From Bacillus nitratireducens (GTDB lineage Bacteria; Bacillota; Bacilli; Bacillales; Bacillaceae_G), in NCBI RefSeq assembly GCF_001884135.1, contig NZ_MAOC01000038.1, positions 62,001 to 126,000 on the forward strand: 64,000 bases of DNA, given 5' to 3'. The notes under the pieces were generated by a model. That model was given only the letters and a program-made list of their open reading frames with translations. It was not told where the DNA came from and searched no databases. A program made the position numbers and the translations under genes. This document shows positions 1 to 62,029 of the stretch, one piece after another. Each line of letters begins with the position of its first letter. Position 1 is the first letter of the stretch.

Positions 1-148
1 TCCAAATTTCACCACCTATACCTCCTAAGTTATAGTATTTCCCATTATGGATGCTCATCATCACTTTCTCCCCATCCATATCGCTCACTACATTTTCCTG
101 ACCTTGTACAACAAAACTGTGTAATGAAATTGTTTGTTTACTACTCAT
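1..148 (-). CDS. PqqD-like lasso peptide leader-binding protein (B1/RRE), 3' part missing
   Basis: Only the first 49 codons are in the window; the gene continues off the left edge. It begins MSSKQTISLHSFVVQ and contains the stretch MSIHNGKYYNLGGIGGEIW, the 'x-x-N-G-x-Y-Y-x-L-x-x-x-G-x-x-I-W' pattern of small PqqD/RRE proteins. In Bacillota lasso clusters such a protein (B1) binds the precursor leader and hands it to the B2 protease. The ATG overlaps the stop of the upstream kinase gene by one base (TAATG), so the two are translationally coupled. B2, transporter and any nucleotidyltransferase genes would be expected further left, outside the window. Confidence 0.82.
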   Translation of the reverse strand, partial: MSSKQTISLHSFVVQGQENVVSDMDGEKVMMSIHNGKYYNLGGIGGEIW

Positions 149-1077
149 TATTTTTCCTCCTCTTTTAAAGACTCTAGAATTTTGGATACTAAATCATGTG
201 CCGTAAACTTTGAAATAGGACGTCTCAATTGACACATATCTATTTTGTTGACGATATTTGTTGAATGCATAAAATGCCATTCCATCATCCCCAATCGTGG
301 GATTAATGAATTCCTATATGTATGACGTAGCAATGTGCGTAGTCTCTCCAGTCCTTCAATCTGCTGAAGTTCAACATCCCCATTTTCTACTTTCACTAAT
401 TCGAATACACCTGCCAATGGTAATGGTTCCTCGAAAAAGTTAGCTGTAACGGGGACAGCATATTTAGTTTCCCTTTCAAATAATGGCTGATAATGCGCTG
501 TCTCCATTCCAAACTGATCAAGACTCTCTTTCCATAACTTTTGCTGCGGGTAAGATGGTGTAACAAAAGGAGTATTATCCTCAGAAAGAGACACAGCAAT
601 TACATCATCACTTAAAAGCTTATAGCCTTTGCTTAAAAGGGCTGATGCAAGAGTTGATTTTCCAGCTCCTGATCTTCCTACAAAAGCATACGCCTTTCCA
701 TTGATGGCTATTACACTTCCATGCAGAGGGAGTATTTTTCTCTGCATCAACAATGCCCCCATACAAGTCCCAAGAATATAAAGCCGAATCTTATCTTGAT
801 CAGACCCTTTCATAGGTGAAACAATGATTTTTTCTCCATTTTTAATACAAAACGTAGCAGTTTCGGGGATTTGAAACATAATTAATTCTTCTTCAACTAC
901 AAACACTGACTTCGGAGAAGATAACTCTCCCCATAATTGGGACAAATCTGCAGTTTCTATTTTTACGTCTACTTCATTTTCGTAATTACTTACTTGAGGC
1001 AATTCCGGCAGGGGAATCTCACTTAATAGGGCTAATCCGAAGGCTTTGTAAATCTCTTTCTTTACAGTATGTATCAT
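148..1077 (-). CDS. HPr-kinase-like lasso peptide C-terminal serine kinase
   Basis: A protein of 309 aa if it starts at the ATG at 1077, which has GGAGTG six bases upstream; the frame is open to a GTG at 1086. It shows the HprK-type P-loop GRSGAGKS (residues about 134-141), a preceding LHGS, and SDD (about 156-158), but no N-terminal HPr kinase regulatory domain. Proteins of this kind in paeninodin-type clusters (PadeK/ThcoK) phosphorylate the side chain of the last residue, a Ser, of the lasso precursor. The precursor encoded just upstream here does end in Ser. The gene lies between the precursor and the PqqD-like gene and overlaps the latter by one base. HprK involved in carbon catabolite control is excluded by context and by the missing domain. 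Confidence 0.85.
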   Translation of the reverse strand: MIHTVKKEIYKAFGLALLSEIPLPELPQVSNYENEVDVKIETADLSQLWGELSSPKSVFVVEEELIMFQIPETATFCIKNGEKIIVSPMKGSDQDKIRLYILGTCMGALLMQRKILPLHGSVIAINGKAYAFVGRSGAGKSTLASALLSKGYKLLSDDVIAVSLSEDNTPFVTPSYPQQKLWKESLDQFGMETAHYQPLFERETKYAVPVTANFFEEPLPLAGVFELVKVENGDVELQQIEGLERLRTLLRHTYRNSLIPRLGMMEWHFMHSTNIVNKIDMCQLRRPISKFTAHDLVSKILESLKEEEK

Positions 1078-1109
1078 CTTTCTCACTCCAAATAGTTGAA
1101 AAATTGATT

Positions 1110-1147
1110 AAAAAAAACCCTTATACCGTAATTAAACTATATAAGGG
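1110..1147 (-). terminator. Intrinsic terminator between lasso precursor and kinase genes
   Basis: Read on the minus strand: an 8-bp stem CCCTTATA / TATAAGGG with a 14-nt loop, followed by eight T. It begins 38 bases after the precursor stop codon and ends before the kinase ribosome binding site. As part of one operon it would act as a partial terminator, leaving more precursor mRNA than kinase mRNA. Confidence 0.8.
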
Positions 1148-1184
1148 CTGTAAAGCATATAAATCTCATTTAAATATTAGTGCA

Positions 1185-1316
1185 TTAGCTGTGGTGAAGA
1201 GCGCCTTGCTCATCCTCATCTTCAAAAACTTGGTCAACAAGTCTCTTTCCAGGTCCAGCCATTGTCATGTTGATATCAAGTACTTCTAATACTGGTGATT
1301 GCCATTCTTGTTTCAT
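1185..1316 (-). CDS. Lasso peptide precursor (A), paeninodin type
   Basis: A 43-aa peptide, too short for usual gene calls. ATG at 1316 with GGGGGTG six bases upstream. The leader (residues 1-19) runs MKQEWQSPVLEVLDINMTM and has Thr at the penultimate leader position (T18), needed by lasso proteases. The core (residues 20-43, 24 aa) starts AGPG, has Asp at core position 9 (D28) for a nine-member isopeptide ring with Ala1, then an acidic EDEDE tail and a C-terminal HHS. Paeninodin has the same plan: AGPG start, Asp9, acidic tail, final Ser that becomes phosphorylated. The gene sits 14 bases after the cyclase gene and is followed by a strong terminator. Product inferred; not proven to be made. 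Confidence 0.9.
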   Translation of the reverse strand: MKQEWQSPVLEVLDINMTMAGPGKRLVDQVFEDEDEQGALHHS

Positions 1317-1330
1317 AATTTCACCCCCTT

Positions 1331-3268
1331 TCAAATATATTTTTTGATAAATCGATAAACAATAAGACTACGCATTAAAATTCTAAAATCTGGATCAAAC
1401 ACGTATTCTACTCGTGGTTCTCCTTGAATTTTCAAAATCGCGCTCTTAATAATCTCCATATTAAAAAAGTTAGAGGCCACTGGGTCTTTACTAAGCTGCT
1501 GAAGTTCCTCGATAAACATTTTCCATGAAGGAATCATGCGATGAACCACATCAGCTGCCTGTATTCCCCGCACACGCTGATTTAACCTTACTTTGTCAGG
1601 AAGAAATCCTTTTGTGGACCTCCGGACAAGTGCACGATTTAAGCCATTTTGAACAAATTGTTCGAGTGGTAACGATAAACAGAATCGAATTACCCGTAAG
1701 TCATTCGTTGGATCATGCCCTTGTAAACCATAACGCAAGGAGAGCTTTGTTCCACTTGTACCCGTTGTATTCCACAAGTTTAGCTGTTCAAAATGTTTCT
1801 GCCTTATTTCATATATATTTGGGATAGAGGCCCCTGTTACTTTCACACCATGTTCTTCAAGCTTTCTAAATACATCAGTACGTTTGGCAAGTTCTGGACT
1901 AACTAACGTTGGCAGTTCGTATTGCTGTTCTGAGGAAAACATGTTTTTTATCGATGGGAATGCTTTCTCCCCTACAACTTTCAGTATTCTCGATTTTTTG
2001 ACTCCAACGTTCTTACCATACAAATCAATTTCACGATAAAGCTGCAACCAGCTGAACTTTTTAAGTAAAATCGCATAATAATCTAAAGCTGGCCCCCAAG
2101 AGATTGTGAAATTTCCTCTCGCTCCATTTAAGAGCACCCCAATCCCTTGTTGTTGAGCTTTTTCATAAATTCCTTTCACCCAGACGGAATTTTCGAAAAA
2201 TTTATATGGCATCTCCATAATCTCAAGCCAATCATCAATTTCTGAGAAAGAATTTTCTCCCGGAAAATTCAAATAATTCCCTTTAATATTCCCTACATGT
2301 TGTACTGTAGTTTGAATAAATGGCTTTTCATCAGCAATCGTATGACCACGAGTCCAATCAGTAAACCCTTCCGCAGGTACCGAGCTGAATGTATATAATT
2401 TTTTGTTCTCTTTTTGCAGGGCTCTCGCAGCAAAGCTAGCAACAGCTCCTGAATCTAATCCCCCACTTAAATGAGAACCAACATTACGATGAGTACGTAA
2501 CCTTGATGTTACTGCGCTTTCAAATACGTCCCTGAACGCCTCTTCATAATCTTCATTTGATTTGAGTTGCAACTGCTCCTCTACAAATAACGTGTCGTAT
2601 TTCGCAATACTAACTCTTCCCTTAACTACGGAGATAGTATGAGAAGGCGGGACTTGCTCTATATTTTTATGCACTGTTGAAAATGCATCTATTGTATCAA
2701 GCATATTAGGTATCGCTAAATATTCAGCTAACCATTGCTCATTCAATTCCTTCCCAACGTACGGTAAAGAAAACAGCGGTTTTATGCTAGTACAAAAAGC
2801 AAATTGATTTTGATTGCGGTAAAAGTAAAAAGTCCGACTTCCTGAAAAATCACGTGCACCAAAGAGCAATTGCTTTCTCTCATCCCAAATCATAAAAGCA
2901 AAATCACCAATTAGATACTTTGGTACATGCTCTCCCCACTTTTGATAAGCGAGTAAAATCAACTTACTATCAGGCATCTCTCTTCTATGTACCTTGTCTA
3001 CTTGCAATCTATCGAATAATTCATTGCGATTATCAATAATAGCATCAGCAGTTATAACCAACTGTGTTTCATAATCATAGTAGGGTAATTGTTCATTAAT
3101 AGATTCAGATGTTATCCATTTTGCATGGGAGCCAAAAAAAACATTTTCCTTGTGCCATATATCGGTATTGTCACCTGGATAACGAGATAAATCTTTCATG
3201 ATTCCAATCCTATGTTCAGGCGGTATCGGTTCTCCATTTAAATGATAAATTCCGGTTATTGCACTCAT
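1331..3268 (-). CDS. Lasso cyclase (C), asparagine-synthetase-like
   Basis: A protein of 645 aa with the two-domain plan of AsnB: an N-terminal Ntn-hydrolase-like glutaminase domain (about 1-220) and a C-terminal ATP-binding synthetase domain with the PP-loop SGGLDSG at 268-274. The protein begins MSAITGIYHLNG, so the catalytic Cys2 of true class II glutaminases is absent, and it cannot release ammonia from glutamine in the usual way. This is typical of lasso cyclases, which adenylate the Asp/Glu side chain of the core and close the macrolactam with the N-terminal amine. Start ATG has GGGAGG five bases upstream. It is the first gene of the visible cluster, directly before the precursor gene. 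Confidence 0.88.
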   Translation of the reverse strand: MSAITGIYHLNGEPIPPEHRIGIMKDLSRYPGDNTDIWHKENVFFGSHAKWITSESINEQLPYYDYETQLVITADAIIDNRNELFDRLQVDKVHRREMPDSKLILLAYQKWGEHVPKYLIGDFAFMIWDERKQLLFGARDFSGSRTFYFYRNQNQFAFCTSIKPLFSLPYVGKELNEQWLAEYLAIPNMLDTIDAFSTVHKNIEQVPPSHTISVVKGRVSIAKYDTLFVEEQLQLKSNEDYEEAFRDVFESAVTSRLRTHRNVGSHLSGGLDSGAVASFAARALQKENKKLYTFSSVPAEGFTDWTRGHTIADEKPFIQTTVQHVGNIKGNYLNFPGENSFSEIDDWLEIMEMPYKFFENSVWVKGIYEKAQQQGIGVLLNGARGNFTISWGPALDYYAILLKKFSWLQLYREIDLYGKNVGVKKSRILKVVGEKAFPSIKNMFSSEQQYELPTLVSPELAKRTDVFRKLEEHGVKVTGASIPNIYEIRQKHFEQLNLWNTTGTSGTKLSLRYGLQGHDPTNDLRVIRFCLSLPLEQFVQNGLNRALVRRSTKGFLPDKVRLNQRVRGIQAADVVHRMIPSWKMFIEELQQLSKDPVASNFFNMEIIKSAILKIQGEPRVEYVFDPDFRILMRSLIVYRFIKKYI

Positions 3269-3596
3269 TTTTTCCTCCCACTACGAGACAATTAAGGGAA
3301 AACCCGATGGATAAGTAAATTACTAGATATATCAAAAAAATGTTATTAATATACTAGAAAACCCTTTCCTCAAACTACCTCGTTTACGCATAACAGATTT
3401 TAAAACCCAATTTTATAGCCTTAAATCTTTTTCAGTTGAAGTATTCAAGCTTCCAGGCTACCTATCCTATTGTAAACCCTTGCATTTTAATTTTCTCAAA
3501 AAAGAACAAAGGTGTGATTTTCTTAATTCGAATCAAAATATTACCATCTGAATTTTATATAAATAAAAATCACTGAATTTAATATATCGATAAAAC

Positions 3597-3624
3597 GTTT
3601 ATATTCTTTATAAAGAATATAAAC
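3597..3624. repeat. Perfect 28-bp palindrome upstream of lasso cluster
   Basis: Arms GTTTATATTCTTTA and TAAAGAATATAAAC are exact reverse complements with no spacer. It lies about 330 bases upstream of the cyclase start codon. It could be an operator for a dimeric regulator or an RNA cruciform; there is no adjoining T-run, so a terminator is unlikely. Confidence 0.75.
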
Positions 3625-3735
3625 TCAGATTACCATTTCACTATTACATTGTCAAGTATCTATATACTCAAGAAAGTGAATATTTATGTATCTTTTTTAG
3701 TAACTGTAAGAACAAATAATACAGTACAACTTTAA

Positions 3736-3763
3736 TCGGTAGGAGGCTTTACATCCCTACCGA
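3736..3763. repeat. 8-bp inverted repeat
   Basis: TCGGTAGG and CCTACCGA separated by 12 bases. No T-run follows on either strand, so this is not a clear terminator. It is the only GC-richer stretch in the surrounding AT-rich spacer. Confidence 0.5.
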
Positions 3764-4003
3764 CTATTAATCTCATCAATCGAGCTTTTACGAACATTCC
3801 ATCTATCTTCTAAGTTTCCCTAAAATCTTAAGGTAGTGCTCTTAATGCTCATAAATAGCAGGATAAACGTTATATCTTACAAATACACAGGATAATTTTC
3901 ATCTTTTTATATTTTTAAAATTTCTGTGCTATGATATTTTATATAATTTATTATTAACCCACTAATTAAAGTTGATTTTTCACTTGTTATGTTCTCTATT
4001 ACT

Positions 4004-4046
4004 TTATTCTCCTGCTTCTTTAATCGAAACCGGAGAATAACCTTTT
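4004..4046 (+). terminator. Terminator-like hairpin (+ strand)
   Basis: A 9-bp stem, TTATTCTCC (4004-4012) and GGAGAATAA (4032-4040), followed on the plus strand by CCTTTTTAT. It could end a plus-strand transcript from the spacer, or act as an attenuator in front of the broken frame that starts at 4084. No intact plus-strand gene was found before it. Confidence 0.45.
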
Positions 4047-4083
4047 TATATTTATACCATTTTCACAAAGGGGATGATATAAT

Positions 4084-4230
4084 ATGCGTTTACCACTAAT
4101 AAAAAATACCATTCGCATTTACCACAAGATTATGTACGCTTACTATTTCACTCTTTATAGGGATTGCCGTGACCTTCATTCAAAGAAAATTTTTTTCAGT
4201 AAAATGAGATTTCATAAAAACAGCACTGAA
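4084..4230 (+). pseudogene. Possible remnant of a small membrane protein gene
   Basis: An ATG at 4084 with AAAGGGG upstream opens a short frame, MRLPLIKNTIRIYHKI. After about codon 17 the plausible continuation lies in the next frame and reads TLTISLFIGIAVTFIQRKFF, a hydrophobic segment with a basic end. This looks like the first part of a membrane protein (for example a sensor kinase) broken by a frameshift and truncated. The family is not identified and the call is tentative. Confidence 0.3.
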
Positions 4231-4296
4231 TGAGATATTAAATCCTCCTAGTTCATTAACACCCTTCTTAATTAAAGCTGTTTCTATTTTTTATCT

Positions 4297-5466
4297 TTAC
4301 ATGCCAGCACTTACCATCAATATATTCTTAATACATGTAATAACTCTTGTCTGATCTTTTTCTGTCATACCTGATCCAGACGGAAGACATACGCCTGTTG
4401 CAAATAATTTTCTAGAAACATCCTCACTCTCACTATGCGGATAATACATTACATCTTCAAATAAAGGTTGCATATGAAGAGGCTTCCAAACAGGACGCGC
4501 CTCAATGTTTTCATTTTCCAGTTGTTTCAGTAATGCCTGAATCGGTACTCCTGTTTTTTCTTCATCTACAGTAAGAACTGTAAGCCATCGGTTTGAATAA
4601 GTATCCTCTAACTCAGGCATAAACTGTATCCCTGAAATATGAGATAATTCTTGATAATATCTATCAAATATTCGTCTTCTTGCATGTACTCTCTCTTGTA
4701 AGACCTGCAGCTGTGCTCTACCTACACCTGCTAAAACATTACTCATACGATAATTATATCCAACCTCACTATGTTGGTAGTGTGGAGCCGGATCTCTTGC
4801 TTGAGTAGCTAAAAATCTTGCTTTTCTCAATGCCTCGACATCATTTGAAACAAGCATGCCTCCACCTGAAGTTGTAATGATTTTATTGCCGTTAAACGAA
4901 TAAATACCAAATTTTCCGAATGTCCCGCTTTCTTTACCTTTATAGGAAGAACCGAGCGATTCTGCCGCATCTTCTATCACTGGGACATCATATTCATTAC
5001 ATAACGAAAGAATTTCATCCATTTTAGCGCTTTGTCCATATAAATTTACAACAATGACAGCTTTCGGAGGTATTCCTTTCTCATTTGCATCACGTAATGC
5101 ACGTTCTAAAGCTTGTGGCGACATATTCCACGTTTCAAGCTCAGAATCAATAAATACTGGTTTAGCCCCTAAATATAAAATTGGATTTGCGCTCGCTATA
5201 AAAGTAAGACTTGAACAAAACACCGTATCTCCATCATTTACATCCAGTAAGCGAAGTGCCAAATGGATAGCAGAGGTTCCTGAACTAACTGCAGCCGCAT
5301 CAAGAACTCCAACATGGGATGAAAGTTCACTTTCAAACGCATCTACATTTGGACCAAGTGGAGCAATCCAATTCATATCAAATGCTTCCCCTATATATTT
5401 TTGTTCATTACCGCTCATATGTGGAGCGGAGAGATAGATTCTTGTTTTTTCCTGTGAGTATACCAC
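4297..5466 (-). CDS. epsN: UDP-4-keto sugar aminotransferase (EpsN/PglE family)
   Basis: A DegT/DnrJ/EryC1/StrS-family PLP aminotransferase of 389 aa, very like B. subtilis EpsN (shared IYLSAPHMSG start, NWIAPLGP, and EDAAESLG). The Schiff-base Lys is in SFNGNKIITTSGGG (about residue 195). It would convert the UDP-4-keto-6-deoxy sugar made by EpsC to the 4-amino sugar, a step toward UDP-di-N-acetylbacillosamine. GTG at 5466 was chosen because GGAGAG lies eight bases upstream; the in-frame GTG at 5475 overlaps that site. Last gene of the exopolysaccharide operon, 13 bases after epsM. Confidence 0.9.
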   Translation of the reverse strand: MVYSQEKTRIYLSAPHMSGNEQKYIGEAFDMNWIAPLGPNVDAFESELSSHVGVLDAAAVSSGTSAIHLALRLLDVNDGDTVFCSSLTFIASANPILYLGAKPVFIDSELETWNMSPQALERALRDANEKGIPPKAVIVVNLYGQSAKMDEILSLCNEYDVPVIEDAAESLGSSYKGKESGTFGKFGIYSFNGNKIITTSGGGMLVSNDVEALRKARFLATQARDPAPHYQHSEVGYNYRMSNVLAGVGRAQLQVLQERVHARRRIFDRYYQELSHISGIQFMPELEDTYSNRWLTVLTVDEEKTGVPIQALLKQLENENIEARPVWKPLHMQPLFEDVMYYPHSESEDVSRKLFATGVCLPSGSGMTEKDQTRVITCIKNILMVSAGM

Positions 5467-5479
5467 TTTAAACACTCTC

Positions 5480-6112
5480 CTATAATTCTTTTTTTATTAC
5501 TCTAGCTGGAATACCAACTGCCTTACAATTCGCTACAATGTCACGGATCACCGTTGCTCCGGCACCGATAACGGACCAATCGCCAATTGTAATATTTGGA
5601 ATCACATTAACTCCTGCTCCTATATGTACTCCTATTCCTACAGTAACGGATCCTGTAAGCACTGCATTTGGGGAAATATGTGCAAAATCATTTATCTTAT
5701 TATCATGTTCAATAATAGCGCCTGAATTGACAATAACGTGATTCCCAATTTCAACATCTGCATTAACAATTGCACCTGGCATAATAACTGTACCAGTTCC
5801 AATCTTTGCACTTAAACTAACAATAGATTGTTTATGTATAAGCGTCGCATAGCGATGACTGGGAATCTCTAACTGCTCCATAATTATCTTTCTTGTTCTG
5901 TTATTCCCTATAGCTATCACGAACTTTGTATCTACATGCTCATCCATTAACTTTACAGCTGCAGAAATAGGTCCAAAATAGACACCATCCTCAATTTTTA
6001 ACTCTTTATACACATCATCTAATTGCGCAATGATTTCATAATTTCCATACGATAGGATAATATCTCGGATTACTTTACTATGACCACCTGCCCCAATCAT
6101 AATTATTCGCAT
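5480..6112 (-). CDS. epsM: Sugar O/N-acetyltransferase (EpsM/PglD family)
   Basis: A protein of 210 aa starting MRIIMIGAGGHSKVI: an N-terminal Rossmann-like PglD_N domain (GAGGHSK), then hexapeptide repeats that build a left-handed beta-helix (from about residue 90). NeuD/PglD-type enzymes acetylate the 4-amino group of UDP-amino sugars with acetyl-CoA, which fits its place between epsN and epsL. The ATG at 6112 has GAGGAGG eight bases upstream; a longer frame to 6145 would overlap epsL and lacks a ribosome site. Fourteen bases separate it from the epsL stop. Confidence 0.88.
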   Translation of the reverse strand: MRIIMIGAGGHSKVIRDIILSYGNYEIIAQLDDVYKELKIEDGVYFGPISAAVKLMDEHVDTKFVIAIGNNRTRKIIMEQLEIPSHRYATLIHKQSIVSLSAKIGTGTVIMPGAIVNADVEIGNHVIVNSGAIIEHDNKINDFAHISPNAVLTGSVTVGIGVHIGAGVNVIPNITIGDWSVIGAGATVIRDIVANCKAVGIPARVIKKEL

Positions 6113-6125
6113 CCATCTCACCTCC

Positions 6126-6722
6126 TCAAGAATTCTTTGTACCATTAAATTTTTCCACAGTTACATGCCCAACCTGATTGATTCCTTCTGACTTAAATAC
6201 TTTCTTTACCGTTAACAACAAAATTTTCATATCAAGCCAAAAAGTCCGTTTTTTTGCATACCATACATCAAAATCAAATTTTTCCTCCCAAGAAATCGCG
6301 TTTCTGCCATTTACTTGGGCCCATCCCGTAATCCCTGGTCTGACATTATGCCGCTTGGCCTGCTCTTCTGTGTATAGTTCCAAATACTCCATCAATAATG
6401 GTCTTGGACCTACCAAACTTAAGTCCCCTTTTATAACATTAAACAACTGTGGCAATTCATCTAAACTATATTTTCTCAGAAACCCTCCGAAACGGGTAAA
6501 CCTTACATCATCGGGCAACGCATTCCCCTCACTATCCTTCTCGTCAGTCATAGTTCTAAACTTATAAAGAAAAAAAGGGACACCATGCAATCCCGGGCGT
6601 TGCTGCTTAAATATGATAGGGGAACCCAACTTAATTCTAACTAAAACAGCCACTATTATAATAAGAGGTAAAAGAAACACCAATAATGACAAAGAAACGA
6701 ACAAATCGAAAAGTCTTTTCAT
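6126..6722 (-). CDS. epsL: Undecaprenyl-phosphate sugar phosphotransferase (EpsL)
   Basis: A 198-aa bacterial sugar transferase of the short PglC type: one N-terminal hydrophobic segment (about 10-30) and the catalytic domain with KFRTMTD, LRKYSLDELPQL and LSLVGPRPLL. It transfers a phospho-sugar from its UDP donor to undecaprenyl phosphate at the inner membrane face, starting each repeat unit. With EpsC, EpsN and EpsM it forms a four-gene set expected to put a bacillosamine-type sugar first. Start ATG at 6722 follows GGAGTATG. Confidence 0.9.
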   Translation of the reverse strand: MKRLFDLFVSLSLLVFLLPLIIIVAVLVRIKLGSPIIFKQQRPGLHGVPFFLYKFRTMTDEKDSEGNALPDDVRFTRFGGFLRKYSLDELPQLFNVIKGDLSLVGPRPLLMEYLELYTEEQAKRHNVRPGITGWAQVNGRNAISWEEKFDFDVWYAKKRTFWLDMKILLLTVKKVFKSEGINQVGHVTVEKFNGTKNS

Positions 6723-7068
6723 ATATAATCATACTCCTAATTTGATTTATGTATTAACCTCTACTCCATAACTGTCTAAAACTTCTATCTTCATAAAAAG
6801 CAGCCCCATTCATAGTTGAAAAATAACAAATTGATTTACTTTTTTATTTAAGGACATGTCATGCAAAATACTTAATTAAAATACTCAGTAATAAGAACAC
6901 CACCATATTCAACAGAGCATAGTGGTGTTTCATTTCTAAAAGATTCTTAATACTTTCCTTTTATTTACTTGCTCTTACTTTAAGCATTATAATTTTGTGT
7001 CAATTCATTAGGCGCTGGTGCTCGATGGATTGGGTCAGTAACGGGATTATAGAAATGTAGATTTCAAA
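6723..7068. other. 346-bp spacer between flippase gene and epsL
   Basis: No gene is supported here. It contains an 8-bp inverted repeat (6896-6929). Bases 6990-7050 give a short open plus-strand frame ending in ...GARWIGSVTGL that has no start and no recognised relative; it may be a decayed gene end. The spacer is a natural breakpoint between the strain-specific interior and the conserved epsLMN end. Confidence 0.5.
6896..6929. repeat. Inverted repeat, possible weak terminator
   Basis: AACACCAC (6896-6903) and GTGGTGTT (6922-6929) form an 8-bp stem with an 18-base loop. The plus strand continues TCATTTCT and the minus strand CTTATTACT, so the T tract is poor on both sides. It may reduce read-through from the flippase gene into epsL. 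Confidence 0.4.
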
Positions 7069-8616
7069 TTAAAAAGTGCCCTTTTTGTGTGACTGAATTT
7101 TCACCCTCAGGTTTCCAATTATACTTTTAACAATTCCAAATAAATACTTAAATTCATCTGTCTTATAAAAAACAAATACATAAATAGCATTTGGAATTAT
7201 TAAACAAATCATCCCTCTTAATATTAATTCTAGTAATCCATTATACGGAATAAGACCACATATTAAACTTGTGATAACACAAGCTCCTAACCCTATCATC
7301 ACATAGTAAGTATATTTTAAAAAATAATCTCTAACCGGTTTACGGAATACTTTCTTATATACTAAATAAGGAGCAATCCAAAATGGAACCACTAGTGTAC
7401 TTATAAGTGTTCCAATAAAAACACCTGTTATGCCCATATATTGCACCAAGACAATAGAAGCCACCAGATTCACGGCAGCCTCTAAAAAGGGCGCATACCT
7501 ATCTTCATGAAAAATCCCTGATGTTGTCTTGACCATAGATATAGAACGTCTCATTCCTGATACATAAAAATTTATCATTAATATAATTAATACACTTATA
7601 TCCATAATAAATTTCGAACCAATCCATAAAGTAATAAAGGGTTGCATTATAATATATAAAAATATGGAAAAAAATGAGTATATCCAAAAATTACAAAGCA
7701 TAGTAATCTTAAATATGCTATAAATTTTTTCATCGCTTTCTTTTGCAACCAAATTCCCTACACTATGATTTATATTATCAAAGATTTGATTTATAAAAGT
7801 TCTACAAATGTTAATTAACATATAATAATTTGAATACAATCCAACAGCTGTAACACTGACAAAAGACGCAATTAACATGTTATCAGTACCAAAGACAATA
7901 TATCCGCCTATATTATGTAACACTAAAGCCTTTACATTTTTAACAATATTACTTTTGGTTTCACTATCTAATTTGCTTGCTGCTTTATTTTTTAAAAATG
8001 GGTACATCTTATCTACCAATATAGCCAAGAACGCAGAGGTACTGATTGTTATAATAATATCGATTATTAGATATAAAATATAACTATGCGTAAAGTATAA
8101 AATTCCTATTTTAATGCAAGTAGATATAATAGATGAGATAGAATAAATCCCTGTAACAATATATCCCTTTTGACAAACATTTAAAAATGAGGTTTTATAA
8201 GAAAATAGATAAGATGAAGCTGTATTAATTAAAAATATAATATAAATAAAATGAATATTGTCTACCTTTGCATCTTTAGCGATATATCCAAGAAAAGGTG
8301 ACAAAAGTAATCCTAGTAACAATACTATTAAAGCTATTGCCATATATGCCTTTCTATAAAAATTCATAAGCATATTGATTCTATCCTGATTATTTTCTGC
8401 CACTGGTTTATATAGATTATATATGATAGCAGATCCTATTCCTGCTTCAGCTAAAGATAACATTCCTAATATATTAGTAAATAATCCATTTACCCCCAGA
8501 TACTCAACACCTAAATAAGTAATAAATATGGTTCTGGAAGCAAAACTTAGTAACGTAATAATAACTTGACTGCCTATACCGGCTGATATATTAATTATTG
8601 AATTTTTAACTCTCAT
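7069..8616 (-). CDS. Wzx-type polysaccharide flippase
   Basis: A hydrophobic protein of 515 aa with about 12-14 membrane segments spread over its length, starting MRVKNSIINISAGIGSQVI as many oligosaccharide flippases do (EpsK position in B. subtilis eps). It would move the undecaprenyl-linked repeat unit to the outer face of the membrane for EpsG to polymerise. ATG at 8616 has GGGAGG five bases upstream; the frame extends to 8628 only over that ribosome site. Codon use is strongly AT-rich, like the rest of the interior of the locus. Confidence 0.85.
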   Translation of the reverse strand: MRVKNSIINISAGIGSQVIITLLSFASRTIFITYLGVEYLGVNGLFTNILGMLSLAEAGIGSAIIYNLYKPVAENNQDRINMLMNFYRKAYMAIALIVLLLGLLLSPFLGYIAKDAKVDNIHFIYIIFLINTASSYLFSYKTSFLNVCQKGYIVTGIYSISSIISTCIKIGILYFTHSYILYLIIDIIITISTSAFLAILVDKMYPFLKNKAASKLDSETKSNIVKNVKALVLHNIGGYIVFGTDNMLIASFVSVTAVGLYSNYYMLINICRTFINQIFDNINHSVGNLVAKESDEKIYSIFKITMLCNFWIYSFFSIFLYIIMQPFITLWIGSKFIMDISVLIILMINFYVSGMRRSISMVKTTSGIFHEDRYAPFLEAAVNLVASIVLVQYMGITGVFIGTLISTLVVPFWIAPYLVYKKVFRKPVRDYFLKYTYYVMIGLGACVITSLICGLIPYNGLLELILRGMICLIIPNAIYVFVFYKTDEFKYLFGIVKSIIGNLRVKIQSHKKGTF

Positions 8617-8664
8617 TTTTCCTCCCACTTCAGAAAGTATGAAAACACTTTCAACCCAAGAGCA

Positions 8665-43836: not shown

Positions 43837-45357
43837 CTATTGTACCACGTTACCCAAGAAGAAGAAATCCTTCATTAATGGAAAATATTCATAAAAGAAA
43901 TTGTAACCAATCATCGGCATAATCCCTAGTATTACAATCGAAATTGCACAAAACCCCATGACAATCTTTATATTTAACGGTAACCGAAGCCTCTCTTCTG
44001 TCTCTCCAGTGCGGAAAAACATTTGCTGTAATATCCGAAAGTAATATACGAATGAAACAACTGTTGTCCCCATCATAATAGAAGCTAATACGTAATGAGC
44101 AGGTTCAACATGGAGTGCCCCTAAAAAGATGTTAATTTTCCCGATGAAACCAGCTGTCCCCGGTATTCCAGCTAACGATAAAATAAAGATTGTCATCACT
44201 ATAGCTGTAAATGGAGATCGCTTGTATAATCCTGTAAAAATCGTCATATTTTCCTTATCATTTTGTAAGATTAATCCGTGGATGATTGCAAATGCTCCTA
44301 TATTCATAAGCATATATGCAAGCATATAAAACCACATACTATCCATCGTGAACTGTGATAGCGCCACAAGAGGCACGAGCAAATACCCAGCATGCGCGAT
44401 ACCTGAATAGGCAAATAGACGTTTTACGTTGTATTGCTTTAATGCTACTACATTCCCAATAATCATCGTAATACTAGCTAGCACAGCAATGTATATACTC
44501 ATACGCCCGTACAAAGATTGTGCGTCCCCTTGGATTTCCACACCTGCAAACACCATAAGAAACAAGCGCGTAATGAGTAGAAAACCAGCAATTTTAGAAA
44601 TCGTTCCGAGAAAAGCAGTGACAGGTGTAGCCGCTCCCTCATACACATCCGGTGCCCACATATGAAATGGAACTGTTGCAATTTTGAATGAGAGTCCAAC
44701 AAGTAAAAGTAGAAATGCGAGAGCTAACAATAATTGAATACCCCCGGCCAATCCTTGCGTAAGTGCCTGTTGCATTTCCACTATGTTGGTCGATCCTGTA
44801 ATACCGTATAAATAACTCATTCCAAAGAGCGTAATTGCTGTTCCAATTCCTCCGTTAATGACGTATTTCATTGCCGCCTCATTCGATGCGCGGTTTCTTT
44901 TTCGGATTCCTACAAGAATGTAGGAAGAAAGCGACAGCAATTCTAAACCGACGAATAGTGTGATGAAATCAACGCTCGAAGCCATGAACATCGCTCCAAG
45001 AAGCGCCATTAACATTAAGTAATAATATTCTCCCTTATCTTGAATAGGATCCTTTTCATCATCGCTCATTGCCATACATAAGACGAGAGCTGCCCCGATT
45101 AATAACAATGTTTTAAACCCTTTTGAAAATCCATCTAACACAAACGATCCATTTAAAATATCTCCCGCTGGTTCACTATATAGCGTAATTAATGACACGG
45201 CTGCTAATACGACGGCTGCGATTGCACCAATCGCAACGTGCCTATGGTTCAGCTTAAAAAACAAATCACATATGGAAAGAAGGATGGCTGCCCCAAGAAT
45301 AATGAATTCCGGCACCATCAGATGCCACGACAAGCTAAGTAACGTATTCATATCCAT
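43837..45357 (-). CDS. nuoN: NADH-quinone oxidoreductase-like subunit N
   Basis: A protein of 506 aa with about 14 membrane segments, one of the three antiporter-like proton-pumping subunits of complex I. Landmarks: GLELLSLSSYILVG with the conserved Glu, SFKIATVPFHMWAPDVYEGA with the conserved Lys, and FAYSGIAHAGYLL. Last gene of the nuo operon, one base after nuoM. GGGGGTG precedes the ATG. Confidence 0.93.
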   Translation of the reverse strand: MDMNTLLSLSWHLMVPEFIILGAAILLSICDLFFKLNHRHVAIGAIAAVVLAAVSLITLYSEPAGDILNGSFVLDGFSKGFKTLLLIGAALVLCMAMSDDEKDPIQDKGEYYYLMLMALLGAMFMASSVDFITLFVGLELLSLSSYILVGIRKRNRASNEAAMKYVINGGIGTAITLFGMSYLYGITGSTNIVEMQQALTQGLAGGIQLLLALAFLLLLVGLSFKIATVPFHMWAPDVYEGAATPVTAFLGTISKIAGFLLITRLFLMVFAGVEIQGDAQSLYGRMSIYIAVLASITMIIGNVVALKQYNVKRLFAYSGIAHAGYLLVPLVALSQFTMDSMWFYMLAYMLMNIGAFAIIHGLILQNDKENMTIFTGLYKRSPFTAIVMTIFILSLAGIPGTAGFIGKINIFLGALHVEPAHYVLASIMMGTTVVSFVYYFRILQQMFFRTGETEERLRLPLNIKIVMGFCAISIVILGIMPMIGYNFFYEYFPLMKDFFFLGNVVQ

Positions 45358-45358
45358 C

Positions 45359-46861
45359 CTACTTCACCCCCAATGTTTTCAACGTATTTTGAAGCGGATC
45401 CCCTAGTAGTTCTGGCATTACTCCAATTGCGATAATAGAAACGAGAAGTAATATAACAGGAACGTACTCCCATCCGTGTATATCAGATTTCGCTTCCCAT
45501 TCTTTCTTACCAAATGTCACTTGAAGTGTCGCTCTTAATACGTATACAGCGGTTAAAATAATTCCAAGTACACCTACGGCAGCGATAACAGGTTGCCCTT
45601 GGAATAAACCGAGAAAGGCAAGGAATTCGCTAATAAATCCAGACATCCCTGGCATTCCAAGCGATGCCATACCTCCCGCTAGGAAGAAGCCGCTAAGCAC
45701 AGGAACACTTTTTGCGAGTCCACCAAGCGCTGTAATATCTGAAGTCCCAAAACGCTCTTCAATCATGCCAAGTAAGAAGAAGAGCAATGCCGCAATTAAA
45801 CCGTGAGACACAACCTGGAACAGTGCCCCTTGTATACCTGGTGCATTTAACGCCGCAAGCCCCATTAATACAATGCCCATATGCGAAACACTAGAGTAAG
45901 CAAGCACCTTTCTAAAGTCCGTTTGGATGAGTGCTAGAAAGGCCCCGTACAATAAATTAATGACTCCTAAAATCGCAATTAGCGTTGCAAAATCACGAAA
46001 ATGTTCTGGAAATAATCCTTTCCCGAAACGAATAATACCGTACGCTCCAATTTTCAGTAAAACTCCCGCATGAAGCATAACTACAGCAGGATGCGCTTCT
46101 ATGTGTACATTGACCATCCAGCGATGCAAAGGGAAAACAGGAAGCTTAATCGCAAAAGCAATCATTATGGCAAGAAACAAGCCGAACTGTAAGCTACTTG
46201 AGACAGCCATTCCTTCCCCAGCACCTACACTCGTTAATATTTCTTTAAGCTCCGTAATATTTGTTGTACCTGTTTTCGCAAACAAAACCGAGAAAACGAT
46301 AAGTAAAATAGCTGATCCGATACCGTTATATATTAAATAACTATATGCAGCCTTTTCACTCGACAATTTCCCCCACTTGCCAATTAATAAAAACATTGGT
46401 GGCAACGTAATTTCAAAGAAGATGAAGAACAGCATTAAATTTTGAGCAGCGAAGACACCGAGCATCCCTATTTCTAGCAGGAGTAATAGCATGTAAAATG
46501 CTTTTAAATTTCTTTTAATGGAAAATGCTGCAATTGCTGCAAGCACCGCTAGTAGGGCTGTCAGCACCATCATTACAAGCGATAAACCATCAATACCAAT
46601 CTCGTAATAAATGGAAAACCATCTTTTATCTACCGCTGCAAAATCCCCAAATTTAATCCATTTCACTTTCTCATCAAATATCGATAAACTCTTTCCTGAA
46701 ACATATGTACAAGCGAGGACGATAGCGATACCAAATGGAAGTGCCGTCCCAAATAAACCAAGCGCTCGCACTGTACGCGATTCTTTTTTCGGCGTTAACA
46801 CAAGCAAGAGAATCCCTAAAAGCGGGGAGAAAATGAAGAACGTTAATAGCAATCCATTCAT
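45359..46861 (-). CDS. nuoM: NADH-quinone oxidoreductase-like subunit M
   Basis: A protein of 500 aa, antiporter-like subunit with about 14 membrane segments. FFIFFEITLPPMFLLIG carries the key Glu, AIKLPVFPLHRWMVNVHIEA the key Lys/His region, and LAYSSVSHMGIVLMG the second Lys-rich helix. Its ATG overlaps the nuoL stop (ATGA), so translation is coupled. Proton channel role is established for the family. Confidence 0.93.
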   Translation of the reverse strand: MNGLLLTFFIFSPLLGILLLVLTPKKESRTVRALGLFGTALPFGIAIVLACTYVSGKSLSIFDEKVKWIKFGDFAAVDKRWFSIYYEIGIDGLSLVMMVLTALLAVLAAIAAFSIKRNLKAFYMLLLLLEIGMLGVFAAQNLMLFFIFFEITLPPMFLLIGKWGKLSSEKAAYSYLIYNGIGSAILLIVFSVLFAKTGTTNITELKEILTSVGAGEGMAVSSSLQFGLFLAIMIAFAIKLPVFPLHRWMVNVHIEAHPAVVMLHAGVLLKIGAYGIIRFGKGLFPEHFRDFATLIAILGVINLLYGAFLALIQTDFRKVLAYSSVSHMGIVLMGLAALNAPGIQGALFQVVSHGLIAALLFFLLGMIEERFGTSDITALGGLAKSVPVLSGFFLAGGMASLGMPGMSGFISEFLAFLGLFQGQPVIAAVGVLGIILTAVYVLRATLQVTFGKKEWEAKSDIHGWEYVPVILLLVSIIAIGVMPELLGDPLQNTLKTLGVK

Positions 46862-48720
46862 CGTAAATCCCCTCCCGTATATAACAAAATAATTATGAGC
46901 ACTGCGAGCGAAACGGCCGTTACAGTTCCATACACTTGTACATTCCCGTTTTGAAGCCGCGATCCTAGACGGCTCATACCTTTAACCAATCCCGCAATTA
47001 AAACTGCAATTCCTTCTACAACGTATACTTCAAATAAGCGAAGCACATAAGCGATCCCTTTCGTAATAGGAAGCACCGTAACATTGTAAAGTTCATCCAC
47101 ATAATATTTTTCTTTCAAAAGGTTATAAAGAGGCGTCGCTTCTCCGCCTGCCCAATCTCTAGAGATAGCTTTCTTACCATATATGAAATATGCGAGGGCA
47201 ATTCCCGCAAATGAAACGAGCATTGCAACAATCATAATCCAAACAGGTCCATGCACTTCCTGCACTTTGAATCCTACATCTTTCGTAAGCCAATCCCCAA
47301 GAAACGTTCCGAACCACGGTGTATTTATATAGCCTGCCACTACCGCAAGAACACCAAGGACAATCATCGGATACGTCATTGTGCGAGGTGATTCATGCAC
47401 CTCTTCCTCCGTCTTCGTTTCCCCTGTAAAAACAAGAAAGTATAGACGGAACATATAAAATGCTGTTAGAAATGCCGCAATTACCGCTAAAACGAATAGA
47501 AAGTAATTGCCATTCATCCAAGCCACCGCTAAAATTTCATCTTTACTAAAAAATCCGGAAAGAAGAGGAACACCACTAATTGCAAGTGTGCCTATTAAAA
47601 ATAGTGCACCGGTAACTTTCATCTTTTTCTGTAAACCGCCCATTTTATTAATGTTTTGCGTATGGACTGCATGAATTGCACTTCCTGCCGCCAAGAACAG
47701 TAATGCTTTAAAAAAGGCGTGTGTCGTTAAGTGAAAGATACCAGCTACATAACCCGCAGAGCCTAGCGCAAGCATCATATACCCGAGCTGACTAACTGTG
47801 GAATAAGCAAGAACCCTCTTAATATCCGTTTGTACAAGACCAATAGAGGCCGCAAAGATTGCGGTGAAAGCCCCAACGATTGCAACAGTTTGCATCGCTA
47901 CCACACTTGCTGAAAATAGTGGGAACATCGTCGCTACTAAATATACGCCGGCTGCAACCATCGTTGCCGCGTGAATAAGCGCCGAAACAGGCGTCGGTCC
48001 TTCCATTGCATCTGGCAACCATGTATGAAGCGGAAACTGACCTGATTTCCCCATTGCACCGATAAAAATTAATATCGCCGTTATTGTAATCATAGAAGGA
48101 GAGAGGTCACCGGTCTGAATCGCTTTAAAAATCGCGTCATATTCAAAACTACCTGCGTGCCAAAAAATTAAAATCATCCCAATAAATAGCCCAACATCCC
48201 CAATGCGTGTCATAATAAAAGCCTTTTTCGCAGCAGCCTTCGCTTCTTCTTTAAAGAAATAAAAACCGATAAGTAAAAACGAACCAAGGCCGACTAACTC
48301 CCAAAATATATAAAGCTGTAATAAATTCGTCGATATAACTAGCCCAAGCATCGCAAATGTAAAGAGCCCTAAATATGCATAAAAGGTTGGTAATCTTTCG
48401 TCGCCTTTCATATAACCTTTTGAGTACACATGTACAAGAAAACTCACAAGCGTAACGATAAACAACATTAAAGCTCCTAATGCGGTAACTTCAAAACCAA
48501 ATGATATATCTATATCTCCTACCCTAAGCCATACCCACTTATGCTTCACTGCCTCGGATGAAAACCGTTCTATTAGTACCACTACCGCGGATATAAAAGA
48601 GAGAAAGGTAAAGAAAATACCTAGTACACTACTTCCCTCTCTAATTTTCTTCCCGAACATAATAAGTATCAAAAACGAAACAAGCGGGAAAAGCGGTATG
48701 AGCCATGCATAATCGATCAT
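46858..48720 (-). CDS. nuoL: NADH-quinone oxidoreductase-like subunit L
   Basis: A protein of 620 aa, the most distal antiporter-like subunit, with a long lateral helix in its C-terminal part (from about 490). IFWELVGLGSFLLIGF, GKSGQFPLHTWLPDAMEGPT and LAYSTVSQLGYMMLALG are the standard motifs. GGGGGAAGG lies before the ATG at 48720. Followed by a four-base overlap with nuoM. Confidence 0.93.
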   Translation of the reverse strand: MIDYAWLIPLFPLVSFLILIMFGKKIREGSSVLGIFFTFLSFISAVVVLIERFSSEAVKHKWVWLRVGDIDISFGFEVTALGALMLFIVTLVSFLVHVYSKGYMKGDERLPTFYAYLGLFTFAMLGLVISTNLLQLYIFWELVGLGSFLLIGFYFFKEEAKAAAKKAFIMTRIGDVGLFIGMILIFWHAGSFEYDAIFKAIQTGDLSPSMITITAILIFIGAMGKSGQFPLHTWLPDAMEGPTPVSALIHAATMVAAGVYLVATMFPLFSASVVAMQTVAIVGAFTAIFAASIGLVQTDIKRVLAYSTVSQLGYMMLALGSAGYVAGIFHLTTHAFFKALLFLAAGSAIHAVHTQNINKMGGLQKKMKVTGALFLIGTLAISGVPLLSGFFSKDEILAVAWMNGNYFLFVLAVIAAFLTAFYMFRLYFLVFTGETKTEEEVHESPRTMTYPMIVLGVLAVVAGYINTPWFGTFLGDWLTKDVGFKVQEVHGPVWIMIVAMLVSFAGIALAYFIYGKKAISRDWAGGEATPLYNLLKEKYYVDELYNVTVLPITKGIAYVLRLFEVYVVEGIAVLIAGLVKGMSRLGSRLQNGNVQVYGTVTAVSLAVLIIILLYTGGDLR

Positions 48721-48749
48721 TGTTTCCTTCCCCCTTTTCGGTCACAATG

Positions 48750-49064
48750 CTATCCTTTGAGCGTATCCATCTCATCTACATGAACTGTCGGACGATTACG
48801 GTACAAAGCAATCAAAATTGCAAGACCTACCGCTGCCTCCGCTGCCGCTACAGACATCGTAAACAGCGAAAAAATTTGTCCTGTTAAATTCGGAAACAAG
48901 CCTAATTTACTAAACGCTACTAAATTTAAATTGGCCGCGTTAAGCATTAATTCGATACAAACTAATACAATTACTGTATTTCGCTTTGTTAAAGCTCCAA
49001 ATAAGCCGATGCAAAACAAAATAATCGCAAGTGTTAAATACGCAGAAGCCGGAACGCTACTCAT
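48750..49064 (-). CDS. nuoK: NADH-quinone oxidoreductase-like subunit K
   Basis: A protein of 104 aa with three membrane segments and the two buried Glu residues of NuoK ([13 protein letters not shown] and [13 protein letters not shown]). It links the quinone site to the antiporter subunits. The ATG at 49064 has GAGGAGG six bases upstream and gives [13 protein letters not shown]; the longer open frame to 49097 lies inside nuoJ. It overlaps the end of nuoJ by eight bases. Confidence 0.92.
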
Positions 49065-49581
49065 GGGAATCCTCCTCTCCCTCATCCTTCTTCGCAAGGA
49101 TAATCGCTCCTACAAGTGCTACAAGTAAAATAACTGAGGTTAATTCGAATGGAATAATATATTTTGAATAGAGAAGTGTACCGATTTGAAGTGTGTTATT
49201 TTCATGGAGAGGTAAACTTCCTTGTGTGCTTTGATTTGAAAAATCGATACTATTAACAGCGAAATACATAACTGCTCCAAATGCTACAACCGCAAAGAAG
49301 ATAATCCATTTTCGAAGAGTAAGGCGCGATTCATTTTCCGCATTATGTTTCGTTAACATAATGCCAAAAATCATAATAATAGTGATTGCACCAGAGTAAA
49401 GTAAAATTTGTGCAACTCCGATAAATTCGGCCGATAAAAGAAAGTACAAGCCTGCAATGCTAAGAAATGTAAGTACAAGAGCCAGCATCATATGCATTAC
49501 TTTCGTTAAGTTCAGCATAAGCACTCCGCCGATAATCGCAGACAAGGATAGGATAAAGAATGCTACAAACTCGCCATTCAT
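49057..49581 (-). CDS. nuoJ: NADH-quinone oxidoreductase-like subunit J
   Basis: A protein of 174 aa with five membrane segments; [20 protein letters not shown] includes the conserved central helix with its pi-bulge region. It is part of the proton-pumping membrane arm. The ATG overlaps the nuoI stop by four bases. The C-terminal tail is short and acidic ([11 protein letters not shown]). Confidence 0.92.
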
Positions 49582-49997
49582 GCTTTATTCTCCTTCCTGA
49601 CGTTCTCGTCGTTTTCGTCGAGCCACTGCAAATTTTTAAATAAATCATCACGTGAATACTCTGCGAGTTCGAAGTTATTCGTCATTACAATTGCCTCTGT
49701 CGGACAAACTTCTGTACATAAATCGCAAAGAATACAAATTTCAAAATTTATATCATACGTGTCGATAATTTTTCCTTTTTTCGTAGGATCAGGATGTTTT
49801 TTTCCCGTTAATTGAATGCAATCTGTCGGACAAATGTTAGAACACTGATTACAAACAATACATTTCTCTGGATAAAACTTTTGAATACCCCGAAAGCGGT
49901 CTGGTAATGGTAGCGGCTGATTCGGATAATCATACGTCACCTTTTTCTTACTCAAATTACTAAGCGTATATTTTAACCCTTTAAATAGTCCTTTCAT
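49578..49997 (-). CDS. nuoI: NADH-quinone oxidoreductase-like subunit I (two 4Fe-4S clusters)
   Basis: A protein of 139 aa with two CxxCxxCxxxCP motifs, CIVCNQCSNICP and CILCDLCTEVCP, for clusters N6a and N6b. It passes electrons to NuoB and the quinone. In a complex without NuoEFG it could be close to the entry point for electrons. AAGGGGGTG lies before the ATG at 49997. Confidence 0.93.
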   Translation of the reverse strand: MKGLFKGLKYTLSNLSKKKVTYDYPNQPLPLPDRFRGIQKFYPEKCIVCNQCSNICPTDCIQLTGKKHPDPTKKGKIIDTYDINFEICILCDLCTEVCPTEAIVMTNNFELAEYSRDDLFKNLQWLDENDENVRKENKA

Positions 49998-50022
49998 CTC
50001 TTACTGGCACCCCCTTTATAGA

Positions 50023-51024
50023 TTAGAAGAATAGCTCCTTAATCAATGCCGTTAAGAAAATATTTGCAAGTGCGATTGGTAATAATACTTTCCAGCCAAA
50101 CTCCATTAACTGGTCACCTCTTATGCGAGGGAACGTAACGCGGAACCAAATTAACAGAAAGACCACACTGCTGAATTTCAAAGCAAACCATACGGCTCCT
50201 GGAATAAATCCAAGGAACATAACTGGGTTCCAGCCTCCTAAAAAGAGTACTGTAATTAAAGATGCCATCCCGAAGAAATACACATACTCTGAAAGCATGA
50301 AAAACGCCCAGCGAAAACCTGAGTATTCTGTATGGTATCCAGAAACAAGTTCTGACTCCGCTTCGGGTAAATCAAACGGTGTCCTATTTAGCTCTGCAAC
50401 TGACGCAATTAAGAAAATAACGAAACCGATTGGCTGTGCGAAAATGTACCATACCTTCTCCTGCGCCGCTACAATCTCATTTAAATTAAGACTACCTGCT
50501 AACAAAACGACGCCAATTACACTCATCACAAGTGGAATCTCATAAGAAATCATTTGCGCCGCTGCACGCATCCCTCCTAAAAGGGAGTATTTATTATTTG
50601 ATGCCCATCCCCCAGTTACAACGCCAATCGTCGTAATCCCAGAAACAGCAATGTAATACAGCAATCCTACACCAATATCCGCGAACTGAAATTTATCAGT
50701 AAACGGGATAACCGCAAGCACCATAAATGCTGGTGCGAATGCAATAACAGGCGCTAATATAAACAACGGTTTATCTGCAGCTTTCGGAATACTATCTTCT
50801 TTTAATAATAATTTCAAAACATCAGCTACCGTTTGTAGTAAACCGAACCGGCCCCCAACTTGGTTTGGTCCAATCCGCCCTTGCATAAATCCCATCACTT
50901 TCCGTTCTGCCAAAATACCGTATGTAACAAAGCCCAGGACTGCAAATAATAGAAGCACCGCTAATCCGAAAAAAATGAAGAAATTCGTCCAGCTTGAAGG
51001 TGATTGTAAGAGCGTCTCAATCAT
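50023..51024 (-). CDS. nuoH: NADH-quinone oxidoreductase-like subunit H
   Basis: A protein of 333 aa with eight membrane segments; it forms much of the quinone chamber. RKVMGFMQGRIGPNQVGGRFG and FDLPEAESELVSGYHTEYSG (conserved acidic loop) are characteristic. The ATG overlaps the nuoD stop by one base (TAATG). Confidence 0.94.
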   Translation of the reverse strand: MIETLLQSPSSWTNFFIFFGLAVLLLFAVLGFVTYGILAERKVMGFMQGRIGPNQVGGRFGLLQTVADVLKLLLKEDSIPKAADKPLFILAPVIAFAPAFMVLAVIPFTDKFQFADIGVGLLYYIAVSGITTIGVVTGGWASNNKYSLLGGMRAAAQMISYEIPLVMSVIGVVLLAGSLNLNEIVAAQEKVWYIFAQPIGFVIFLIASVAELNRTPFDLPEAESELVSGYHTEYSGFRWAFFMLSEYVYFFGMASLITVLFLGGWNPVMFLGFIPGAVWFALKFSSVVFLLIWFRVTFPRIRGDQLMEFGWKVLLPIALANIFLTALIKELFF

Positions 51025-52124: not shown

Positions 52125-52127
52125 AAG

Positions 52128-53285: not shown

Positions 53286-53800
53286 TTATTCGTCACCTGC
53301 TTCCCTGTCTTCGCCTCGTAACGAATTTTTTCTTTTAATTTATTAATTCCATAAATTAAAGCAGCAGGGTTTGGGGGGCATCCAGGAATATATACATCAA
53401 CTGGTACAATTTGATCTACGCCTTTCACAACTGCATATGAATTCACATACGGACCACCGGCTGTTGCACAAGATCCCATCGCAATTACCCACTTTGGTTC
53501 AGGCATTTGATCATATAAGCGCCGAACAATAGGCGCCATTTTCTTCGTTACCGTTCCTGACACAATCATGACATCCGATTGTCTTGGTGACGTCCGAAAA
53601 AATGACCCAAATCGATCTAAATCGTAATGTGATGAACCTACTCCCATCATTTCAATCGCACAGCATGCCAGTCCAAATGTCATCGGCCATAAAGAGTTGC
53701 TCCGCGCCCATCCCTTGAGCTGTTCCAATGTAGAAAAAAAGATATTCCTTTCTAATTCCGCTCGCTCCTGTGGGTGTAATTCCTCAAAATTTATAACCAT
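53282..53800 (-). CDS. nuoB: NADH-quinone oxidoreductase-like subunit B (cluster N2)
   Basis: A protein of 172 aa carrying the last iron-sulfur cluster, N2: [14 protein letters not shown] (tandem Cys), [12 protein letters not shown] and [15 protein letters not shown]. The ATG at 53800 ([10 protein letters not shown]) has AGAAGGTG upstream; an extension to 53821 lies inside nuoA. It overlaps nuoA by ten bases. Confidence 0.94.
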
Positions 53801-61944: not shown

Positions 61945-62029
61945 TACATAACCGTCAGCAATCTCAAAAGCTGAGATGCCTTTATATGATCTAGCTAAGC
62001 CACAGTCGGCTTCACTTTTTATTTATCTA

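Follow-up and report, generated by a model that had tools for sequence, protein, structure and literature searches.

A conserved RNA hairpin behind the precursor genes of paeninodin-type lasso peptides

What is the sequence behind the precursor gene of a lasso peptide operon doing there? The question is raised by a 64,000-nucleotide stretch of Bacillus nitratireducens DNA (positions 62,001 to 126,000 of contig NZ_MAOC01000038.1; the window), the left end of which carries on its minus strand the upstream half of a paeninodin-type lasso operon. Behind the precursor gene (A), in the gap before the kinase gene (K), lies a hairpin that is absent from the account given in the initial annotation of this DNA. 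It is real, conserved at the level of RNA and strongly tied to lasso precursors. The features of this region, in the order of transcription, are as follows.

1331-3268, minus strand: C, AsnB-type lasso macrolactam cyclase, 645 aa, with the SGGLDS motif, a Pfam Asn_synthase match and 398 bits against NF033535
1321-1331, minus strand: ribosome-binding site of A (AAAGGGGGTGA), read from the sequence and abutting the C stop codon
1185-1316, minus strand: A, paeninodin-family lasso precursor, 43 aa, 61.5 bits against NF033524, leader ending at Met19
1154-1109, minus strand: conserved precursor hairpin, with 5′ arm 1148-1139, loop 1138-1127, 3′ arm 1126-1117 and T run 1117-1110
148-1077, minus strand: K, HprK-like precursor kinase, 309 aa, with LHGS, SGAGKS and LLSDD and with profile and Pfam matches
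1-148, minus strand: B1, PqqD-like leader-binding protein (RRE), open at the window edge, 49 aa visible

The stem of the window hairpin is GCCCTTATAC/GTATAAGGGC, and is followed by eight T. Its predicted fold has an energy of -14.4 kcal/mol (z -4.4), and it scores 42.9 bits against a covariance model of which the window copy is itself part. No Rfam match was found at E ≤ 1 in window 1-4300, and a terminator scan with loops of up to 8 omits the hairpin, whose loop is 12.

Relatives were collected by scanning contigs with C, giving 79 loci (L001-L079; the best 80 of 250 matches), to which a whole-genome search added 11 that are only 3-5 kb long; several of the resulting 90 loci are cut short. 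A strict pattern search of the 90 loci and the window (1.8 Mb) put the stem between A and K in the window and in 64 loci (65 sources in all); it also occupies eight A-C gaps of double clusters and three A-D gaps. Of the 131 pattern matches, most of the remainder are these palindromes again, picked up in reverse; two lie behind A with no next gene in reach, and one is elsewhere (L064:8504). A first, looser detector was discarded, since it found 50/87 against 38/87 on the reverse strand. A freer test, requiring 7/10 matches in the 5′ arm and so tolerating three changes at most, found the hairpin behind 96 of the 112 precursor genes in 89 loci and the window, against 2/112 after shuffling. The loops are 4-22 bases long and not conserved, and the distance from stop codon to hairpin is mostly 13-54 bases. 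In L072 the copy lies farther off, as it does in L069, the A gene of which is weak (E 2.8) and not counted among the 112. The covariance model was also used to look for the hairpin behind the precursors of linear polyphosphorylated peptides: in L001-L079 all matches at E ≤ 0.001 fall no more than ~165 bases beyond an A gene, the palindrome being matched on either of its strands. Weaker matches occur elsewhere, at L027:13158 (E 0.005) and L006:5867 (E 0.036). Four tandem precursors of the AGKGW..IDWVTYDDADLYNP type (L134:627-1360, minus-strand coordinates) share a single hairpin behind the last, as expected if the hairpin marks the end of the transcript.

The association extends to whole genomes. 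In 27 cluster-bearing genomes (~145 Mb) the strict pattern has 29 sites in 21 genomes, and 27 of the 29 are behind precursors, one of these belonging to a second cluster (L093); two are elsewhere (L091, L092). A reversed control pattern has sites in 2/27, and identical stems equally frequent behind unrelated genes were not seen in these genomes. The hairpin follows the precursor in 14 of 20 further precursor genomes, drawn from 22 by leaving out two (G052, G119) that had supplied training loci; further sites in the 22 are L103 and L109, both at precursors, and L104-L108, five sites for which none was found. Among 40 genomes with no precursor detected at 1e-6, nine have a site. For seven of these nine no precursor was found; the other two revealed precursors that the protein search had missed, one in a full cluster (L100) and one an orphan (L102) at the opposite end of a polysaccharide locus. 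The reversed control has sites in 5 of the 62 (22 + 40) genomes.

A covariance model of the hairpin (R1) was run on 398 genomes (149 Paenibacillales and 249 Bacillales), and matched at E ≤ 1e-4 in 38 and 56 of them respectively. Taking the best 30 loci from each of these groups, the match lies within 150 bases behind a precursor in 30/30 Paenibacillales and 24/30 Bacillales (54/60), orphan precursors being among them; lower-scoring matches may hold more false ones. Eleven of the 60 loci were in the training alignment, and of the other 49, some of them already met in the earlier searches, 43 are behind a precursor. In six loci (L140, L161-L164, L170) it is the strand opposite to the precursor that gives the palindrome its higher score.

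The pattern of substitution bears on the kind of molecule in which the element acts. In 91 distinct hairpins, 66 single-side transitions keep a G-U pair and 2 break the pair. In a double-stranded DNA site both kinds of transition are expected to be equally common, and the hairpin therefore acts as RNA. Where both sides have changed the outcome is a Watson-Crick pair in 31 cases, G-U in 2 and unpaired in 10. In 57 aligned copies 98.4% of cells are paired, and the covariation score of 0.193 lies above all of 500 shuffles (mean 0.137, standard deviation 0.007), which ignore kinship, and above all slid controls. The number of pairs with a both-side change is less telling, being matched by 4/500 shuffles and by one of the slid versions. 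All 91 hairpins have C-G at pair 2, and 90 of them at pair 4. The sequence of the stem is conserved across Bacillota genera; the loops and spacers are not.

The translation of A is MKQEWQSPVLEVLDINMTMAGPGKRLVDQVFEDEDEQGALHHS, with a 24-residue core AGPGKRLVDQVFEDEDEQGALHHS, and it matches NCBIfam NF033524 ("paeninodin family lasso peptide") at 61.5 bits (4.3e-17) against a cut-off of 27. The leader has the WxxP motif (WxxP/YxxP; PMC13381572) as WQSP and Thr at -2 within NMTM, and the core starts with AGPG, has Asp9 as the sole acidic residue among positions 7-9 and ends in Ser24. Of the small frames in the 64 kb that have [YW]xxPx[LVIAFY] near a start codon, A alone is preceded by a ribosome site, as judged with a simple pattern; leader motif and ribosome site disclosed neither a second nor an orphan precursor in the window, in which the hairpin model finds one hairpin only. 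C begins MSAITGI, with no Cys at position 2, and has the SGGLDS motif that is present in 106/107 relatives. K begins with an ATG preceded by GGAG, giving 309 aa (the GTG at 1086 would give 312 aa). Its matches to HprK-type models are weak and under their cut-offs. The His-Lys-Asp-Asp residues described for PadeK and its kin, kinases that target the C-terminal Ser (PMC9266682), are present in K as LHGS, SGAGKS and LLSDD, and these occur in 85, 83 and 80 of 89 relatives' kinases respectively.

The initial annotation had reported a cyclase, a 43-codon precursor, an HprK-like kinase and a PqqD-like gene at the left edge; all four frames are present, and the strong ribosome site, Thr-2, AGPG, Asp9 and terminal Ser that it described are all seen in A. 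Its paeninodin-type assignment is borne out by the NF033524 match together with the gene order, the leader motif and the kinase residues. To call the precursor overlooked was too strong, because the curated NCBI model calls A well over its cut-off and C-A-K-B1 is the published Firmicutes order, given as C A K B1 B2 D (PMC5067487), so that the C-K gap is the standard place for a precursor. The order C A K B1 is found in 82/90 loci (78 as printed and 4 on the other strand), and B2 follows B1 directly in 70/90 (67 and 3); some relatives have no B1 or B2 within reach. The comparison of cores foreseen in the initial annotation shows that the window core equals none of 160 distinct cores parsed using a fixed leader spacing; Asp9 is present in 131 of these and a C-terminal Ser in 159, and the closest of them, that of Paenibacillus pectinilyticus (L009), has 18/24 residues in common with the window core. 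The cyclases of the 79 loci are 54-65% identical to window C over the full length, the nearest at 65%, and a cyclase at E ≤ 1e-150 is present in 3/19 genomes of the host's nearest family, at 52-61% identity. The family is known; this cluster adds a new member to it, with a new core.

By homology, B1 would bind A through the WxxP leader and K would phosphorylate the C-terminal Ser. B2, expected outside the window, would cut the leader after Met19, and C would close the Ala1-Asp9 ring around the tail. A nucleotidyltransferase (NT) and a transporter (D), also expected outside the window, probably decorate and export the peptide.

How might the hairpin act? The frequency of T after the stem is 0.70, 0.66, 0.74 and 0.58 at +1 to +4 (0.38 in the spacer), after which A is enriched, and a U-tract follows 42/91 hairpins compared with 14% expected. 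The window hairpin, with its T8, combines the stable stem and U-tract of an intrinsic terminator. Terminator-like inverted repeats behind lasso precursor genes are known, with a regulatory role proposed (PMC5974421, citing Severinov 2007, its reference 40), and in microcin C there is a terminator between mccA and mccB, together with a short monocistronic mccA mRNA (PMC6495379). Because of the T enrichment, these known repeats and the microcin C precedent, we consider partial termination with protection of the 3′ end to be the likely function. The hairpin and U-tract would most likely work as a partial terminator and 3′ stabilizer, such that many transcripts stop once C-A has been copied while some polymerases read through into K-B1-B2-NT-D; mRNA for the precursor would then outnumber that for the enzymes. 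The hairpin is a handle on how Bacillota may balance precursor against enzyme levels, and it may affect yields when whole clusters are transferred.

Several observations weigh against this explanation in one part or another. The strict pattern is missing in 6/27 cluster-bearing genomes and in 6 of the 20 further precursor genomes, and the freer test fails for 16/112 precursors (L017, L018, L023, L038, L041, L042, L062, L070, L072 and L075, and two each in L073, L076 and L078). Twelve single-side transversions and the ten unpaired both-side changes in the 91 hairpins fit pairing not at all or only partly. The hairpins were chosen on 16/20 points combining similarity and pairing, so fewer mismatches are seen, though a single mismatch would pass. 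A clear U-tract is missing in 49/91, and termination alone would not conserve the sequence of the stem. On the side of the operon, C at 398 bits (6e-119) is under the curated NF033535 cut-off of 525, and the B1 fragment, 49 aa cut by the window edge, has 71.7 bits against NF033536, under the cut-off of 80; B2, NT and D would lie beyond that edge. With these points weighed, we hold the whole explanation, i.e. a paeninodin operon with a hairpin acting as partial terminator and 3′ stabilizer, to be probable.

The conservation of the stem sequence, unexplained by termination, suggests a factor that recognizes it. In its fullest form this leads to a proposal that we advance tentatively, at somewhat less than even chances: that the stem GCCCUUAUAC/GUAUAAGGGC serves paeninodin-type precursor genes as a dedicated cis-acting RNA element, through which a conserved trans factor sets precursor expression apart from that of the enzymes, which marks orphans at the far end of polysaccharide loci, and which could be used alone to find lasso precursors.

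The rival that survives best, a little less probable again, makes the hairpin a sequence-specific RNA site for a protein, which might be encoded in the cluster or be an RNA-binding protein or RNase of Bacillota and would control processing, stability or translation of the precursor mRNA, with termination secondary. It would account for a stem that is conserved across genera when the loops are not (the near-invariance of pairs 2 and 4 included), for the many hairpins with no clear U-tract, and for orphan precursors that carry the hairpin away from a cluster, though their genomes hold one. No partner is known, however, and the conservation figures arise partly by construction, the finder having demanded 7/10 matches to the 5′ arm.

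It is unlikely that the hairpin is an ordinary intrinsic terminator whose likeness between genera is due to chance or recent transfer. The T enrichment would fit, as would the 6/30 fetched Bacillales loci and the 7/9 sites in genomes with no known precursor at which no precursor was found. Against this, 27 of the 29 strict sites in the 27 whole genomes are at precursors, and the stem is nearly invariant while the cyclases (among the best 80 of 250 matches) have diverged to 54-65% identity with window C and the loops and spacers are not conserved. We give a similarly low probability to an operon that is incomplete or dead past the left edge, with no mature peptide. The left flank is outside the window and B1 or B2 is out of reach in some relatives; yet all visible frames, in the order C-A-K-B1, are intact with their active-site motifs, and C A K B1 B2 is present in 70/90 relatives, several loci being cut short. 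A palindromic DNA site, whether an operator or a recombination or exchange site for precursor cassettes, could explain a perfect inverted repeat in many copies that moves with precursors, second and orphan copies included, but is very improbable given the strand asymmetry of 66 to 2, a half-site spacing that takes every value 4-13 plus 21 and 22, and a position behind the precursor, not in front. Upstream antiterminator copies of either arm were also sought, and were no commoner than in shuffled sequence.

The hairpin is found in a particular genomic setting. Beyond C, the window contains:

4297-30778, minus strand (same orientation as the operon): extracellular polysaccharide locus, with GalU, Wzz, BY-type kinase, CapD-like, EpsG-type, glycosyltransferases, sugar transferase and DegT

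Names were assigned by Pfam on seven genes, of which six matched (the flippase-like 7069-8628 has no Pfam match), and for the others by reading translations. The lasso operon sits behind this locus, and in 51/79 loci at least three genes like those of the window locus are in the fetched flanks, a count with no control set. According to PMC13381572, paeninodins and linear polyphosphorylated peptides (LPPs) often co-localize with capsular polysaccharide loci, and what they do there is unknown. In two genomes, G069 (L174-L175) and G238 (L176-L177), Wzz at one end of a polysaccharide locus is immediately preceded by an orphan precursor with its hairpin, and the C-A-K cluster is at the opposite end of the same locus, 25-31 kb away. 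The placement of orphans at the far end of such loci strengthens the tie between paeninodins and polysaccharide genes. A third genome (G230) has a further orphan precursor with the hairpin, this one beside an ABC transporter gene and on another contig, of 9.6 kb.

A gap of 1 kb with no clear gene (3269-4296) separates C from the polysaccharide locus, and promoter-like sites in window 1-7000 are no more frequent than in shuffled sequence. As to the traits of LPP clusters, namely a SpI peptidase, a second RRE and a YxxP precursor (PMC13381572), no small frame with the RRE motif and a ribosome site is present in the window besides A, and neither SpI nor a second RRE was noticed on reading frames of at least 110 aa in 4200-33800, for which no profile search was made. 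Farther along, serial frames at 43837-54159 resemble a complex I operon, with two confirmed by Pfam; to our knowledge this operon is not found in all Bacillaceae. Beside them at 54467-57196 (plus strand) is a PAS-GGDEF-EAL protein of 909 aa.

The relatives include precursors of other kinds. Some cores have K or G as their first residue and a high content of Pro, Gly or His; these are encoded at L103:5720-5950, L048:14183-14341, L073:17100-17261 and L153:1228-1464 (strand coordinates). None of positions 7-9 in the L103 core is acidic, and closure of the usual ring would therefore be impossible there. A two-Cys type, NGPGNANADCFDV...SNASC, is present in L010, L016, L030, L044, L046, L052, L053, L079 and others, often as the second precursor in C-A-C-A-K, and is possibly disulfide-bearing. 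Two source labels are unexpected. A contig labelled Pseudomonas sp. ISL-84 (L057) contains a paeninodin cluster typical of Bacillota, next to Wzz and BY-kinase genes, and is probably mislabelled or contaminated. A metagenome-assembled genome labelled Thermincola ferriacetica (L007) has a complete cluster, its C 60% identical to window C, by transfer or binning error.

Compared with paeninodin itself (padeCAKB1B2D of Paenibacillus dendritiformis; NF033524), the window shares the visible gene order, Thr-2, AGPG, Asp9, the C-terminal Ser, the HprK-like kinase and the split B. It differs in having K5 and R6 in the ring and the tail EDEDEQGALHHS, where the table in PMC11594732 gives AGPGTSTPDAFQPDPDEDVHYDS, and a WxxP leader motif in place of the YxxP of that listing. 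The P. pectinilyticus cluster is closer, with the 18 common core residues including DEDEQGALHHS, the same hairpin and adjoining polysaccharide genes, but has in addition a second precursor with its own hairpin and upstream LPP-type genes (SpI, second RRE).

For the hairpin, no literature report was found in a search that did not cover the original paeninodin and pseudomycoidin papers (PMC4919450, PMC6993621), and the words hairpin, terminator, intergenic, stem-loop and inverted repeat are absent from PMC13381572. The inverted repeat of PMC5974421 sits likewise between precursor and processing genes. The passage on it describes no conserved sequence, whereas the stem studied here is common to Bacillota genera and also follows orphan precursors. 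The mccA-mccB terminator of microcin C (PMC6495379) serves a different peptide class, with a different sequence and with ribosome-linked termination reported; it resembles the element described here in being a hairpin placed behind a short precursor gene.

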